Shown here in pieces: positions 3,001-16,375 of a stretch of 64,000 bases of DNA. Numbering within the stretch: position 1 is the stretch's first letter; the number at the start of each line of letters is the position of its first letter. Source of the stretch: Croceivirga radicis. GTDB lineage: Bacteria; Bacteroidota; Bacteroidia; Flavobacteriales; Flavobacteriaceae. The position numbers and the translations under genes were made by a program. The notes under the pieces are model-generated. The model searched no databases, was not told the DNA's origin, and worked only from the letters and a program-made list of their open reading frames with translations. The stretch lies in assembly GCF_002072105.2 (NCBI RefSeq), contig NZ_MTBC01000002.1, positions 248,001 to 312,000 on the forward strand. Direction: 5' to 3'.

Positions 3001-4056
3001 GCAGTTAACTGTTTGTTAGATGCCGATAATGATGGTTTAAATGATGACCAAGAAGAAATTTTAGGTACAGACCCTAATAATCCAGATACGGATGGCGATG
3101 GTATTTTAGATGGCCAAGAAGTAAATGTAGACCAAACCGATCCTCTAGATGCATGTGATTCCGTAGGGGGTACACCACTACCAGAAGATGATTGCGATTC
3201 TGACGGACTTACCAATGGTGAAGAGGTGGATTTGGGTACAAATCCTTTTGTTGCAGACACGGATATGGATGGATTAACGGATGGTGAAGAAGTTTTGGTG
3301 GTAGATGACCCAACTACGGCTTTGGTTCCAGAAGTAGCTTCTAATCCGCTAGACCCTTGTGATCCTTTTATTGATAGTGAGGCATGTGGGGCAACCGCTT
3401 CTGATTTAGAGATTACCAAAACGGTAGATGTGGCCAAGCCACTAAGTGGAGACCAAATAATATTTACCATTACCGTTGCCAATTTAACCGAAGGTGGGGT
3501 AGCAAGAAATATTGTGGTGTTAGATGTTTTGAGTGATGCTGCTGCTTTTAATATAATCAGCGAGGAGGTGGCGGAAGGTACCACTTTTGATGCCCAATTG
3601 GGAATCTGGTCTATTCCACAGCTAGATGGTGAAGAAGCGGTAACGTTAAGGTTAACTGGTACGGTTGCTGCAGCAGGGAATACAGATTTTACCAATACGG
3701 CAACTATAGATCAGGTTGTACCACAAGATATAGACCCTAGTAACAATATAGCTTCGGTGGTAGTAGAAGTACAGACAACAGAATGTGTGGACCCTGGTAC
3801 CATATGCAATATTTTTTCCCCTAATGGAGATGGTATAAACGATAGGCTTACATTAGTTTCAGCAGGAGATTATCCTAATAATTACCTTCAGATTTATGAC
3901 CGTTACGGCAATGCTGTTTATGAAAAACGGAATTACCAAAGCGATTGGGATGGAACTGGGGAAAATGGCGCATTACCCAAAGGAACCTATTTCTATACCT
4001 TGGATTTAGGTGATGGGACGGATGTAATAAAAGGTTGGATTCAAATTATACGATAA
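1..4056 (+). CDS. T9SS type B cargo protein, giant multidomain surface protein (5' end missing)
   Basis: The reading frame is open from the first base, so the gene is cut by the window edge; a TTG at 76 is internal and not the start. About 1,351 residues are visible. In order they show: Calx-beta-like beta-sandwich modules with repeated acidic D-D-D/E turns (bases 1-1660); Cys-containing modules with FCDV and YYGF signatures at about 1700-1950 and 2260-2500; an Ig-like module (about 2500-2730); EF-hand-like thrombospondin type 3 repeats rich in D-x-D-x-D-G (about 3020-3400); a DUF11-type module (about 3405-3770); and a C-terminal gliding-motility/T9SS type B sorting domain starting NIFSPNGDGIND and ending KGWIQIIR. 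By family knowledge it is exported across the outer membrane by T9SS and acts at the cell surface, probably in adhesion. A PorP/SprF gene follows at once, as is usual for type B cargo. The exact ligand is unknown. Confidence 0.9.
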   Translation, partial: NELFGTEVFFQVSISSTASESVDYNLSETTSVNVPYILIGEDSATIDVDVIQDFLIEGNETVVLELILNPGDNSAYTIASGQESSTVTIFDDDVAGVLVNGIDAAGGPVTGTAAEDGSQTASFTFSLTSEPTADVEIALSGYGTQLNGPASITIPVADWQTGVVLDVTSVDDAIDDGDVSVAIATGDVTSTDTDYNLLADADVADLSVTSIDNDTANLIVSAISGPVSEDETTTATFTVVLGAEPQGDIDVLVVSQDNGEIEVDSDRLTFTASDWDTPRTITVTGVDDTDVDGDVTVNINVAIEEPAADTSFDGLGTRTVAVVNQDDDQFEAEISNASNAVESPLTNGGFTIELDQQNLTGGDLSVNYSIGGSATAGTDYTALSGVATIIDGETSVVVNIAPIDDNIVELTENIIITLTAGTGYTIGSDNTVTIGVESEDTATITIEDVSENEDDGAITVTATLDNAVTTGFTVNGILADGTATSADNDYSTGGSRQMNFNGSAGETKSFQITPIADAKIEDNETILVSLSTASMFGGLIDTSDTATVTLLNDDGCAAGNTAPNLNTSAPTEFCDVTSTDLNVYVTNAAPTGATLKWSKSNTNLTDASTHIGNNTADESTTYYGFFYDSLNQCASPAISVTIVFNQTPSTGTINNFQVCNTTAGGNNASADLDERITGADAGIWALTTDPSGGQVAIGSGNVVNFAGAPLGDYIFTYTTNTAQGSCSDASDTLLIRVTDCAFDCDAGNEAPTRDNSVDDNFCDVVDADLNDFVTGNAPNGTELRWSPNPDPLVTSAHRSNLVTTPGTYYGFYFDVANDCASPTIAITLVLNETPELTAANGDTICDGGVATLTADATVGASVRWYATATDNTILSTSKTFTPEVTETTSYFVEAFANGCASDRQEVVVTVLEGPSTGTIVDTSACTVAGPENPTTLDLDEVLEGEDPGTWEFVSGEETVSIGAENIVDFEGLAQGNYTFRFTTTAAEAPCTNNSIEVTLTAVNCLLDADNDGLNDDQEEILGTDPNNPDTDGDGILDGQEVNVDQTDPLDACDSVGGTPLPEDDCDSDGLTNGEEVDLGTNPFVADTDMDGLTDGEEVLVVDDPTTALVPEVASNPLDPCDPFIDSEACGATASDLEITKTVDVAKPLSGDQIIFTITVANLTEGGVARNIVVLDVLSDAAAFNIISEEVAEGTTFDAQLGIWSIPQLDGEEAVTLRLTGTVAAAGNTDFTNTATIDQVVPQDIDPSNNIASVVVEVQTTECVDPGTICNIFSPNGDGINDRLTLVSAGDYPNNYLQIYDRYGNAVYEKRNYQSDWDGTGENGALPKGTYFYTLDLGDGTDVIKGWIQIIR

Positions 4057-12421: not shown

Positions 12422-12460
12422 TTTCTTGGGTAAACTGTGATTATGGGTTTACCCAAGAAA
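12422..12460. terminator. Inverted repeat, putative bidirectional terminator
   Basis: A perfect 14-bp inverted repeat (12422-12435 with 12447-12460, 11-base loop) separates the convergent oxidoreductase and LysR genes. The right arm lies inside the last codons of the LysR gene. There is no strong T tract on either strand, so terminator function is likely but not certain. Confidence 0.55.
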
Positions 12461-13361
12461 AATGTTGCTGGTTAATGGTATCTTTCTGTTCATGAATGTA
12501 CGTAACAAAAGCCTTTGCTACTGGTGAAAGTTTTTTCTTTTTAAGATAAACTAAATTCCATTCTGTAGTAATAGGCAACCCTTTATAAGGTATAATGGCT
12601 ATCTGGCCCATTTCTACGGCGTTTTTTATACCTATCATTGGCATAATACTATATCCTAAACCGGCAATAACAGCTTGCTTTAAAGCTTCGTTAGAAGTAA
12701 GTTCAATTTTCTTCTTTACTGCAAGGTTTTGTTTTTTAATAAAACTTTCCATGGCATTTCTTGTAGCAGAGCCATATTCTCTAAATAGTAGTGGTTCGTT
12801 TTCCAAAACCTTTTTCTTAGGAGTTTTGCTTAAGGCCTGTCTAAGTGTGCCTCCAACCAAGTAAAGTTCGTTTTTTAAAAGGGGAATGCTTACCAAGTCT
12901 AAATGCTCAGGTAAAACAGATACCAATGCAAAGTCTACATTGTTTTGTTCTAAATCTTCTACCACCCTTAATTTGTTGGTTACATCCATCTTAAAATCTA
13001 TAGCAGGATGGTTGTTTACAAACCCAGATAAATAATAGGGCATCACATATTTTCCTGTAGAAACTACCGCAATAGACAAATTGCCGGCCAATCTGCCTTG
13101 GTGTATGTCTATTTTCTGGTTTATTTGGTCATATTTAACCAAAATATCTCTTGCTTCATTTGCAATTTCTTCTCCAAATGGAGTAACATAAAGTTTTCTG
13201 CCAATAACTTCTGTTAGTGGAATTGGAAACTGTTCTTGTAGTTTTTTTAGTTGAATTGAAACAGCCGGTTGGGTTAGGTGCAATGCTTCGGAAGCCTTTG
13301 TTATACTGCCTTGGTTAACTACTTCTACAAAAATTTGTAATTGATGAAAAGTAAAATGCAT
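12441..13361 (-). CDS. LysR-family transcriptional regulator
   Basis: A 306-residue LysR regulator. The N-terminal winged helix-turn-helix is clear (FHQLQIFVEVVNQGSITKAS ... LTQPAVSIQLKKLQ, residues 4-45), followed by a linker helix and a periplasmic-binding-like effector domain (about 90-295). It is divergent from a small operon ending in an SbtA-type bicarbonate transporter, the usual placement of a LysR regulator next to its target; the CbbR/CmpR group of LysR proteins controls inorganic-carbon genes. An AT-rich dyad lies in the 83-base gap. Its 3' end forms part of the hairpin at 12422-12460. The effector is unknown. Confidence 0.92.
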   Translation of the reverse strand: MHFTFHQLQIFVEVVNQGSITKASEALHLTQPAVSIQLKKLQEQFPIPLTEVIGRKLYVTPFGEEIANEARDILVKYDQINQKIDIHQGRLAGNLSIAVVSTGKYVMPYYLSGFVNNHPAIDFKMDVTNKLRVVEDLEQNNVDFALVSVLPEHLDLVSIPLLKNELYLVGGTLRQALSKTPKKKVLENEPLLFREYGSATRNAMESFIKKQNLAVKKKIELTSNEALKQAVIAGLGYSIMPMIGIKNAVEMGQIAIIPYKGLPITTEWNLVYLKKKKLSPVAKAFVTYIHEQKDTINQQHFSWVNP

Positions 13362-13367
13362 TAAATA

Positions 13368-13389
13368 TTATTAATGTTTATCATAATAA
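13368..13389. promoter_or_regulatory. Candidate LysR binding dyad
   Basis: TTATTA (13368-13373) and TAATAA (13384-13389) form a dyad with a 10-base spacer, starting 7 bases upstream of the LysR start codon and lying between it and the bicarbonate-transporter operon. It fits the loose T-N11-A dyad pattern of LysR sites, but the region is very AT-rich, so chance is a real alternative. Confidence 0.35.
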
Positions 13390-13444
13390 ATATAAATAAA
13401 AATTAATGAAATTCTACCTGCATATTTGCAAGCAAAAAGCAATA

Positions 13445-13663
13445 ATGCGAATTGTAAAAGTGCACAAACAAGAAAGGGGGTTATATCGTTTTCAGTACCA
13501 AAAGGCAGAAACCAATAAATGGTTATTCTGGATGGCCTTCATGGGATTACTGCTGCTAGTTATGGTGTTGGCAACTTTTATACAATCTCCCATGCAGCCT
13601 TTTCTAATTAAGGCTGGTTTAATACTCTTTCTATTAACAATCATAAAAACAAAAACTATTTAA
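13445..13663 (+). CDS. Small membrane protein of the sbtA operon
   Basis: A 72-residue protein with a basic N-terminal segment and two predicted membrane helices (about 31-49 and 53-68). ATG 13445 is preferred: an upstream in-frame ATG at 13406 precedes a TATTTG-like promoter element and adds a 13-residue leader. It is the first gene of a three-gene operon with a 94-residue soluble protein and an SbtA-type transporter (gaps of 11 and 17 bases). I do not recognise a family. By position it may be an accessory or regulatory subunit of the transporter; that is inference. Confidence 0.65.
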   Translation: MRIVKVHKQERGLYRFQYQKAETNKWLFWMAFMGLLLLVMVLATFIQSPMQPFLIKAGLILFLLTIIKTKTI

Positions 13664-13674
13664 TTCTTTAAACT

Positions 13675-13959
13675 ATGGTACAAACAAAAACAGAAATTAA
13701 ATTGGTAAACGGAACATTTACCGTTTCAGAGGCAACAGATTTATTGGTGTCTTTATTGGAGGAGAAAATCAATTTTCACAAACTACACCGTCTTTCTATG
13801 GGAGAGCGTTTTCCGGATTCCGATACGGATTATGATGACACGCGTATACATGAATTGATGCATGAGCGTACTCGGGTTAAAAATCTCTATAAGGAGATTC
13901 AAGATCCCTTGGCAAAACTTAAGATAGAAGGTACTTTAAGTATAACCATTGAAGATTAA
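13675..13959 (+). CDS. Small acidic soluble protein of the sbtA operon
   Basis: A 94-residue cytosolic protein without signal or membrane segment. The sequence alternates a short beta start (TEIKLVNGTFTVSEA), two charged helices (about 20-38 and 55-80, the second with ELMHERTRVKNLYKEI) and a beta end (LKIEGTLSITIED). It does not resemble the PII-like protein SbtB that usually accompanies SbtA: there is no T-loop-like region and the length is shorter. It sits 17 bases before the transporter gene, so a role in controlling or assembling the transporter is plausible. Family not recognised. Confidence 0.75.
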   Translation: MVQTKTEIKLVNGTFTVSEATDLLVSLLEEKINFHKLHRLSMGERFPDSDTDYDDTRIHELMHERTRVKNLYKEIQDPLAKLKIEGTLSITIED

Positions 13960-13976
13960 AAAAATACAGGCAATAA

Positions 13977-14939
13977 ATGGATTTGCACTTACTATTTGAT
14001 AATTTAACAAACCCAGCACTTTTATTTTTTGTTTTAGGTATTTTGGCTTCGCAAGTTAAAAGCGATTTAGAAATACCTCCTAACTCCTCTAAATTTATCT
14101 CGTTATACTTATTGTTGGCAATTGGTTTTAAAGGCGGTCAAGAGTTGGCGCATAGTGTGTATAATGTAGAAATAACCTATGCAATAATAGCGGGCGTTTT
14201 ACTGGCTTTATTGGTACCTGTTTATACGTATTTTGTATTAAGGTTAAAATTCTCCGTAGAGAATGCTGGTGCTATTGCAGCTGCATATGGTTCTGTAAGC
14301 GCGGTTACGTTTGTTACCGCCGTGAGTTTTTTAGAGTTGGAAGGGATAGCGTTTGGCGGGCATATGGTTGCTGTAATGGCGTTAATGGAGGCCCCATCAA
14401 TAATTATTGGGGTTTTATTGATGCGCCTTTATTCTAATGGGAAAAAATCTAAAAAAGAATTTTTAAATCTATTTACCCATGCCATAACCAACGGTAGTGT
14501 TTTATTGATTTTAGGTAGTTTGTGCATTGGTTATGTGGCAAGTGATGCTCAGGCAGAGGGCATTAAACCATTTACCACGGATATTTTTAAAGGCTTTTTA
14601 GCGGTATTCTTATTGGATATGGGTATTACTAGTGGTAAAAAAATTGGTGCTTTACTAAAAAAGGGTTGGTTTGCATTAGTCTTTTCTATTGTAATTCCTA
14701 TTATAAATGGCGTGCTTATAGCAAAATTGTCTGGTTTGTTCTTAACACAAGACGGAGACCGATTTTTATTGTCAATTTTAGCGGCGAGTGCTTCATATAT
14801 AGCAGTACCTGCCGCTATGCGAATTGCGGCTCCAAAGGCAAATCCAAGTTTGTACTTGCCTATGGCGTTGGCTATTACGTTTCCTTTTAATATTACCTTG
14901 GGAATGCCACTTTATATGTTCATGATAACTATGACATAG
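13977..14939 (+). CDS. sbtA: Sodium-dependent bicarbonate transporter family permease (SbtA-like, DUF897)
   Basis: A 320-residue inner-membrane protein of about 10 helices. It matches cyanobacterial SbtA in overall layout and in the conserved segments NPALLFFVLGILASQVKSDL, AIGFKGGQEL, YGSVSAVTFVTAV and, near the end, ILAASASYIAVPAAMRIA with ANPSLYLP. The central cytosolic loop of cyanobacterial SbtA is shortened here. The family cotransports Na+ and HCO3-. In a heterotroph it would supply bicarbonate for anaplerotic carboxylases or pH control. It is the last gene of the LysR-linked operon and is followed by a good intrinsic terminator at 15071. No SbtB gene is seen in the window. Confidence 0.85.
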   Translation: MDLHLLFDNLTNPALLFFVLGILASQVKSDLEIPPNSSKFISLYLLLAIGFKGGQELAHSVYNVEITYAIIAGVLLALLVPVYTYFVLRLKFSVENAGAIAAAYGSVSAVTFVTAVSFLELEGIAFGGHMVAVMALMEAPSIIIGVLLMRLYSNGKKSKKEFLNLFTHAITNGSVLLILGSLCIGYVASDAQAEGIKPFTTDIFKGFLAVFLLDMGITSGKKIGALLKKGWFALVFSIVIPIINGVLIAKLSGLFLTQDGDRFLLSILAASASYIAVPAAMRIAAPKANPSLYLPMALAITFPFNITLGMPLYMFMITMT

Positions 14940-15172: not shown

Positions 15173-16375
15173 ATGGGTGAAGTATCTGGCTTAAACTTAT
15201 TCCACAACGAGATTTCTTGTTACAAAAAGTTAGATTTTCAATTTGTAGGTAATTTAAAAGCCCGGCCGTTTAATGCCAAGGCATTTTATACTGTATTGGT
15301 GCCCGAATTGAAAAATTTAGATCCTTTGAATCTCAATTTAATTTCTGATACCGAACTAGAAATAAGCTTTCCACAAACTAAAAATGTTACTATAGAATTG
15401 GATAGTTATAACTTGGAATCAATTGAAGGTGCTGTTGTCATCCATGCAAAGGCATTGACGGGTGGTCTTTATAAAATTTTAGCATTGTTCTCGGTACTGG
15501 GGCATGAGGTTGTGATAGATTGGAAAGGGAAGCATCATTTTTATAATTCGGAAACAATTCGTAATTATAATTTTGGACATTATCACTACACGATTAATTG
15601 CAAGGCAGATTCCGTTTTTACTTATATAGAAAAGGTTGTAAATGAATTTAAATTTAGTAATGATTATTGGCAACTTAATTTGTTTTTAGATGATTTAGAA
15701 ATAGAAATAAACAACCATTCTAGTACTTTAAATAAAAAGTCCAATAGTAAAGTTGATCCTTTACTTTCAATAACCATTAAAGAATCGCAATTGCCCTTAA
15801 GTACTGCTCAAGATGCAACATTTAAGCAAGATCAAAGTTATTATTTCTTAAACGTACCCGTAAAGAAGGCAATTGGTATAATTGATAGCTTAACAAAGGA
15901 GTTGTCCAGTTTTGGAGTAACAAATTATTTGGTTGTTTTTGATCCTATAAATCATCCATATTATGATTTTAGCGCAACTATTGCTAATGTAGACTTAGAT
16001 AAAGTACTAGCGTATTTAAAACAATCCAGCGAGAGGGTAAACGGAAGACAAATTATTTTTGGAATAGAACAACTGGATAATAATGGATTTCTTGTTAAGC
16101 GTAGTTATATTGCCGAACCAATAGAAGATACTATTGTTATTACCCAAGGCGATATTACCCAAGGTCATATTTTTTTGGGAACCAGCTATCACGAAAGGTT
16201 ATATGAAACTTTATCAAGGGTAATAGCCAAAAATTTCTGTCCTTGTTACTTACAAACCGAAAATGATCCATTCTATATTTTGCATAAGAATGATGATGAC
16301 TTGGAACTGATTGAACGTTATCTCAAGACCTTTACGGGGTTTAGCTCTTGGTTTAGGGGATTTAAAAAGATATAA
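15173..16375 (+). CDS. Uncharacterised 400-residue soluble protein
   Basis: No signal peptide, membrane helix or recognised motif. The protein is mixed alpha/beta, rich in Asn, Asp and aromatic residues, and ends in a basic tail RGFKKI. The two halves share a similar rhythm of beta strands and amphipathic helices, but I cannot show an internal duplication by eye. The gene stands alone between the sbtA terminator and the tRNA pair, on the strand opposite to the tRNAs, with about 230 bases of upstream DNA of its own. Its base composition is slightly more AT-rich than its neighbours, and tRNA flanks are common insertion points, so a horizontally gained gene is possible. Function unknown. Confidence 0.8.
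   Translation: MGEVSGLNLFHNEISCYKKLDFQFVGNLKARPFNAKAFYTVLVPELKNLDPLNLNLISDTELEISFPQTKNVTIELDSYNLESIEGAVVIHAKALTGGLYKILALFSVLGHEVVIDWKGKHHFYNSETIRNYNFGHYHYTINCKADSVFTYIEKVVNEFKFSNDYWQLNLFLDDLEIEINNHSSTLNKKSNSKVDPLLSITIKESQLPLSTAQDATFKQDQSYYFLNVPVKKAIGIIDSLTKELSSFGVTNYLVVFDPINHPYYDFSATIANVDLDKVLAYLKQSSERVNGRQIIFGIEQLDNNGFLVKRSYIAEPIEDTIVITQGDITQGHIFLGTSYHERLYETLSRVIAKNFCPCYLQTENDPFYILHKNDDDLELIERYLKTFTGFSSWFRGFKKI

Follow-up and report, generated by a model that had tools for sequence, protein, structure and literature searches.

Why is an SbtA-type transporter gene in a flavobacterium preceded by two small genes without a name and faced by a LysR gene? The question arises from a stretch of 64,000 nucleotides of Croceivirga radicis DNA (the window; contig NZ_MTBC01000002.1, positions 248,001 to 312,000). 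Here a LysR-type regulator gene (12441..13361, minus strand, 306 residues) is divergent from a plus-strand operon of three genes: p72 (13445..13663), encoding a 72-residue protein with two predicted hydrophobic helices; p94 (13675..13959), encoding a soluble 94-residue member of a family without name; and a gene for an SbtA-family permease of 320 residues, presumed to be a Na+/bicarbonate symporter (13977..14939). The intergenic gaps are 11 bp between p72 and p94 and 17 bp between p94 and the permease gene. A conserved cis block (13362..13429, plus strand) lies between the LysR gene and p72. The first-pass annotation, made from the letters of the window, had described all four genes as we find them, including the two-helix membrane character of p72 and the soluble character of p94. 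We consider that the locus as a whole is probably a local version of an inorganic-carbon (CO2/bicarbonate) regulon that Bacteroidota keep under LysR control.

The p94 protein matched nothing in Pfam at E ≤ 1 and no NCBIfam family either. Exact short peptides scanned against a genome contig collection gave 16 relatives, all from Flavobacterium, Aquimarina, Nonlabens, Psychroserpens or other Flavobacteriaceae, and SbtA was present in the same DNA piece in 15 of the 16 (the match in L009 was partial). A profile made from these 16 sequences (A1) matched 91 of 397 same-family genomes at 106 places. With a broader profile of 45 sequences (A2), p94 was found in 31 of 395 genomes sampled across the phylum, other families and classes included; 25 loci from 23 of the 31 formed the phylum neighbourhood set, the other eight genomes being already in the family set. 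Three weak partial matches (L116-L118) were kept out of the locus counts, L117 as a full DUF2200 match and the other two judged DUF2200-type by size and matched region only; all three are still inside the 106 places, among those near no pump.

The neighbour count that the first-pass annotation had called for was only partly in its favour: 64 of the 106 places are within 5 kb of SbtA, against 28 within 5 kb of DabA and 14 near neither. All 92 pump-linked places are on the same strand as the pump, and p94 may stand before or after SbtA. With sub-cut-off matches left out before counting (Sbt_1 in G150 and G247, DabA in G301), Sbt_1 exceeded its cut-off in 67 of the 397 genomes and DabA in 31. The A1 profile placed p94 beside the pump in 56 of the 67 SbtA genomes and 26 of the 31 DabA genomes; one of the 11 SbtA genomes without p94 near SbtA by A1, G166, has it by the broader profile (L122). 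Across genomes, the presence of p94 and of a pump were strongly associated (both 82, pump only 10, p94 only 9, neither 296), in counts that ignore kinship, related genomes not being independent. Of 93 family p94 loci, 85 have a relative of the LysR gene, which is divergent in 82; LysR and the DNA element described below are more constant companions of p94 than the pumps. In the 25 phylum loci the neighbours on either strand included isocitrate dehydrogenase (IDH) 13 times, SbtA 11 times, DabA and Sua5 five times each and SulP once, and the pair DUF6671-Sua5 was also among p94 neighbours elsewhere in the phylum. Bicarbonate is a substrate of Sua5, and p94 neighbours therefore share a CO2/bicarbonate theme, to which DUF6671 may belong as well. 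The earlier view of p94 as the control subunit of SbtA is thus too narrow, p94 also standing tightly beside DabB-DabA, IDH, SulP and DUF6671-Sua5. Together these data support p94 as a genuine family that is conserved and has ties to the supply of bicarbonate/CO2. DUF6671 and Sua5 stand in tandem next to p94 at L184, L187 and L198-L200, followed by SbtA at L184, L199 and L200.

The conserved block of the window consists of a dyad TTAT-N11-ATAA (13368-13386), a 16-base core AAATATAAATAAAAAT (13388-13403) and a TTTG box (13425-13428). It was compared with the regions before 121 LysR genes whose products are at least 45% identical to the window LysR; 118 of these regions are distinct. The core was exact in 72 of the 118 and in 2 of 2360 dinucleotide shuffles; at one mismatch or less the numbers were 90 of 118 and 18 of 2360, and in 87 of the 118 such a core lies exactly 25 nt from the LysR start. 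Most LysR proteins behind these regions are only about 50-60% identical to that of the window. A dyad TTAT-N7-ATAA occurred in 65 of the 121 regions, against a shuffled mean of 7; the window copy has the N11 spacer. The block was present at SbtA, DAB (DabB-DabA), IDH and pump-less family loci alike, in 82 of 85 with LysR at three mismatches or less, a threshold that 554 of the 2360 shuffles also pass. The core at L102 has one mismatch, and in the own genome the element gives a single match at three mismatches or less. We take the dyad to fit a LysR site and the TTTG box to fit the Bacteroidota -7 element. The features of the LysR family are found together here: the HTH_1 and LysR_substrate domains of Pfam (62.5 and 125.7 bits), the divergent gene and, in the intergenic region that it shares with the operon, the dyad. 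The ATG at 13445 is favoured over an upstream ATG at 13406 as the probable start of p72, since the conserved TTTG box falls between the two.

A scan of the 397 same-family genomes with the block pattern at two mismatches or less returned 122 sites in 92 genomes, and the reversed pattern gave one match in all 397. Of these sites 92 precede p94, SbtA or DabA in the same orientation, and the remaining 30 are elsewhere. Genomes with p94, SbtA or DabA make up 90 of the 92 that bear a site, partly by construction, the pattern having been built from such loci; 82 of the 92 pump genomes have a site. Sixteen of the 30 outlying sites directly precede IDH genes, none of which had been used to build the pattern. 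IDH was called by BLAST with a Pfam check on one gene (L303), and one of the 16 is a second site in L310 that was placed by coordinates. A site was also present at three DabB genes without p94 beside them (G132, G182, G321).

Two further placements of sites recurred. At L284, L285, L286, L290, L298 and L300 the site (around position 3501) lies beyond the 3' end of a gene for about 740-830 residues and points back at it; the gene encodes an M1 peptidase in all four loci scanned (L284, L285, L286, L290), with no obvious target. At L288, L301 and L305 the site (around position 3501) precedes a lipoprotein gene, of the Band_7/SPFH type in L288 and beginning alike in L301 and L305; SbtA in these genomes has no p94 beside it.

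A mechanism consistent with these observations can be outlined. The putative LysR regulator would bind the conserved element that separates its gene from the operon, thereby controlling itself as well as the operon. The operon would supply bicarbonate via the pump of the lineage, SbtA here and DabB-DabA or SulP elsewhere; several relatives have this element also ahead of the gene for IDH, which produces CO2 and 2-oxoglutarate. The small soluble p94, made with the pump, would be a cytosolic regulator that acts mainly with LysR, in feedback or in co-sensing of carbon status, its action on the pump itself being secondary, if any. The p72 protein would be the membrane protein of the operon, perhaps an anchor or a pump accessory. 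For NADP-dependent IDH, 2-oxoglutarate is a product and NADP+ a substrate. The cyanobacterial LysR protein CcmR represses its own gene and inorganic-carbon transporter genes, with 2-oxoglutarate and NADP+ as co-repressors (PMC3401165). The sensing and supply of CO2 and bicarbonate in non-autotrophic bacteria are poorly understood. Conservation of the regulator, the DNA element and the small protein alongside unrelated pumps makes for a defined regulon that can be tested; it also predicts that IDH belongs to the regulon in many relatives and singles out two protein families for study. That many relatives keep regulator and small protein with another carbon-uptake pump, or a CO2-releasing enzyme, in the place of SbtA points to undescribed CO2 management.

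Several observations weigh against a common regulon. Looser core matches are weak evidence, four mismatches or less being reached by 1474 of the 2360 shuffles. A site at two mismatches or less is missing in 10 of the 92 pump genomes, and eight of the 93 family p94 loci have no LysR by the open reading frame (ORF)/BLAST test. The IDH type that bears the element elsewhere is absent from the own genome, where the best matches reach 31% and 30% identity. The core is absent from three distant DAB loci with LysR proteins 38% identical to that of the window, and the element was not found at L178, L189, L192 and L250. In the LysR-p94 intergenic regions of three distant DAB loci (L176, L179, L186) an AT-rich stretch, AAAAATATTAATT, is shared in place of the core and is perhaps a diverged form of the element.

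With which component does p94 work? We give its partnership with LysR slightly less than an even chance and infer that p94 is more likely the partner of LysR than a pump subunit. This link is favoured because p94 distances track LysR more than the pump: the partial correlation of p94 divergence over 70 SbtA loci was 0.49 with LysR versus 0.33 with the pump, and over 22 DAB loci 0.70 versus 0.05 (DabB). It is also favoured because LysR-p94 pairs without an adjoining pump are scattered on a quick LysR tree, where the 10 rows need 10 changes, at least 8 of them forced on supported branches. Of these rows L007 is cut by a contig end and the genomes of L108 and L114 have a pump elsewhere; in the other seven genomes, one of which (G048) is 82% complete, p94 and LysR are kept with neither SbtA nor DabA found. 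The scanned neighbours at pump-less p94 loci (export genes, PNPase, peptidases) show no evident carbon tie. Three points count against the LysR link. The partial correlations keep shared species history in, and SbtA is a slowly evolving protein. By sequence, p94 groups according to pump type (7 changes of the Dab label versus 29.1 when shuffled) with a distinct DAB signature, which is what a pump partner would show and favours the pump link. One group (L119-L121, L125, L127) has LysR, SbtA and the element, the core with one to three mismatches at the same offset, without p94; LysR is therefore not always in need of p94, and this too favours the pump link. As a side observation, LysR at L008, L010 and L012 matches only in the first 45-76 residues, which suggests broken regulators beside SbtA and p94.

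The strongest rival explanation is that p94 modulates the pump post-translationally: analogous to SbtB but unrelated to it in fold, it would gate uptake by docking on SbtA, DabB-DabA or SulP. We regard this as possible, though rather unlikely. The sorting by pump type agrees with it, as does the tight adjoining of p94 and pump on either side, with 54 of the 64 SbtA-linked places at 130 bp or less, and the correlation with SbtA remains after LysR is accounted for. It would have to hold for pumps that are unrelated proteins; the residual correlation with DabB is negligible, seven genomes keep LysR-p94 with neither SbtA nor DabA found, and at nine loci (one in the family, eight in the phylum set) p94 occurs with IDH and without SbtA, DabA or SulP in the piece. 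In a second alternative, p94 assists enzymes of carbon metabolism (IDH, the Sua5 pathway) as accessory factor or chaperone and merely co-travels in the regulon. The frequency of IDH (13/25) and Sua5 (5/25) at the phylum loci speaks for it; the own genome lacks an IDH of that type and genes for such enzymes are missing beside p94 in most loci of the family (6 of 93 have IDH), and we consider it improbable. An ordinary conserved operon of trivial small genes, linked by common descent within one family, is very improbable: all matches do come from family- or phylum-confined searches or from one scan that returned one family, but different pumps stand behind the same LysR-p94 pair, gene order varies, IDH genes detached from the locus retain the element, and p94 and its neighbours extend to other families and classes of the phylum.

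Returning to p94 as a partner of LysR, a bolder proposal is that it represents a new class of cytosolic carbon-status sensor, PII-like in its working and of unrelated fold, which would serve a CO2/bicarbonate regulon of Bacteroidota as shared control protein and link LysR, three unrelated pumps and IDH. We put this forward as speculative and hold it to be doubtful. With the PII superfamily (GlnK, SbtB, CutA1) p94 shares being a small cytosolic protein encoded beside a transporter. It differs in having no PF00543 match and a predicted fold that is not ferredoxin-like; an identity as SbtB or another PII protein was rejected on these grounds, in agreement with the first-pass annotation. The AlphaFold prediction (pLDDT 85.9, pTM 0.68) has the order E5-16, H17-45, H52-74, E81-91, thus beta-alpha-alpha-beta. 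A fold search against the PDB gave nothing at E ≤ 0.001; a match to 4dci, a Synechococcus protein of unknown function (E 0.05, rmsd 15), was taken as chance, and so was the one match of the p94 profile to PDB sequences, a checkpoint protein fragment (LCD1, E 0.11). The best-kept residues (>90% in 145 sequences) are L10, G13, F15, A20, K31, I32, H35, R57 and L61. N33 falls below 75% in the wider sequence set, and the invariance of KINFHKLHRLS in the first set is due in part to the use of KINFHKLH as a search peptide. At L130-L137 (e.g., L130:5536-5922, L137:5409-5804) a second paralogue of p94, longer (about 109-131 residues) and with a basic N-terminal extension, occurs next to SbtA or behind LysR; most of these loci have the short p94 too.

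The absence of SbtB, also claimed before, was borne out when an sbtB elsewhere in the genome was sought: a P-II/CutA1 profile search, which a very divergent SbtB could escape, found none. The sole P-II gene of the own genome, on another contig, is GlnK-like by position because it directly precedes an Ammonium_transp gene, and no CutA1 was found at E ≤ 1e-3. CutA1-like small proteins of the PII superfamily lie near SbtA in a few relatives (L134:4428-4751, L136:7416-7730, L138:6438-6755), one above the Pfam cut-off, one below it and the third without a match and grouped by eye; they are possible stand-ins for SbtB.

For p72 only sub-cut-off Pfam matches were obtained. Among small same-strand ORFs within 250 bp of p94, 51 of 60 have at least one hydrophobic helix (some genes are counted twice in overlapping loci). 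Two-helix ORFs resembling p72 precede p94 in many SbtA loci; DAB loci have them between p94 and DabB, and in two loci with a pair of p94 genes the ORF lies between the pair. No locus of the order SbtA-p94 is among the 51 helix-bearing ORFs, and p72 is for this reason not universal.

Compared with known systems, the locus resembles SbtA-SbtB with NdhR/CcmR of cyanobacteria in the linkage of an SbtA-family permease to a LysR regulator. The permease, the only Sbt_1 gene in the own genome, matches Sbt_1 (PF05982) at full length (positions 1-307 of 308; 370.6 bits, cut-off 27), and a search of PDB sequences gave the solved Synechocystis SbtA (7cye, E 2.8e-22). Judged from its gene context it would carry out Na+-dependent bicarbonate transport. 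Its unaligned middle stretch has about 35 residues versus about 76 in Slr1512 and is thus some 40 residues shorter; the unrelated p94 stands in place of SbtB, IDH shares the element in relatives, and the host is presumed from relatives to be a heterotroph. The window LysR matched NCBIfam models below their cut-offs only, with NF040786 first (191.9 bits, cut-off 250) and CbbR second; the CbbR score of 179.9 bits is far below the cut-off of 450, and no model named CcmR or NdhR was among the 25 matches listed of 57. The DAB/MpsAB system (DabA PF10070 plus DabB) fills the SbtA slot beside p94 in most DabA genomes of the family, with LysR in most; relatives thus have DabA, whereas PF10070 matched nothing in the own genome. 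In Halothiobacillus the DAB1 operon includes a small hypothetical membrane protein, hneap_0908, that by description is reminiscent of p72 (PMC13144422), and the accessible parts of the DAB/MpsAB papers are silent on any protein like p94.

Control of carbon uptake by LysR proteins is already known, as are SbtA, DAB and the anaplerotic use of bicarbonate. In one heterotroph mpsAB is required for growth at atmospheric CO2 (PMC6689103). SbtA-like proteins have been noted in heterotrophs before (PMC10117731), and the occurrence of SbtA beyond cyanobacteria is therefore no novelty in its own right. Marine flavobacteria with rhodopsin are believed to carry out anaplerotic fixation of bicarbonate in the light (PMC3587595, PMC5932025), and sbtA is biased to the proteorhodopsin-bearing ones (PMC5932025). 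Of the proposed distinct, undescribed type of bicarbonate uptake, the p94 family is supported as real; anaplerotic bicarbonate fixation and the sbtA/proteorhodopsin bias in flavobacteria are both already in print (PMC3587595, PMC5932025, PMC4148732). No description of p94, p72 or the element was found in the accessible parts of the open-access literature, in which a nameless protein is not searchable by name and which leaves subscription papers outside the scope. Downstream of sbtA the window encodes a 400-residue protein without a Pfam match (15173-16375, plus strand). The own genome also encodes a microbial rhodopsin (Bac_rhodopsin 133.6 bits; G000:C19:136140-136784, L315).

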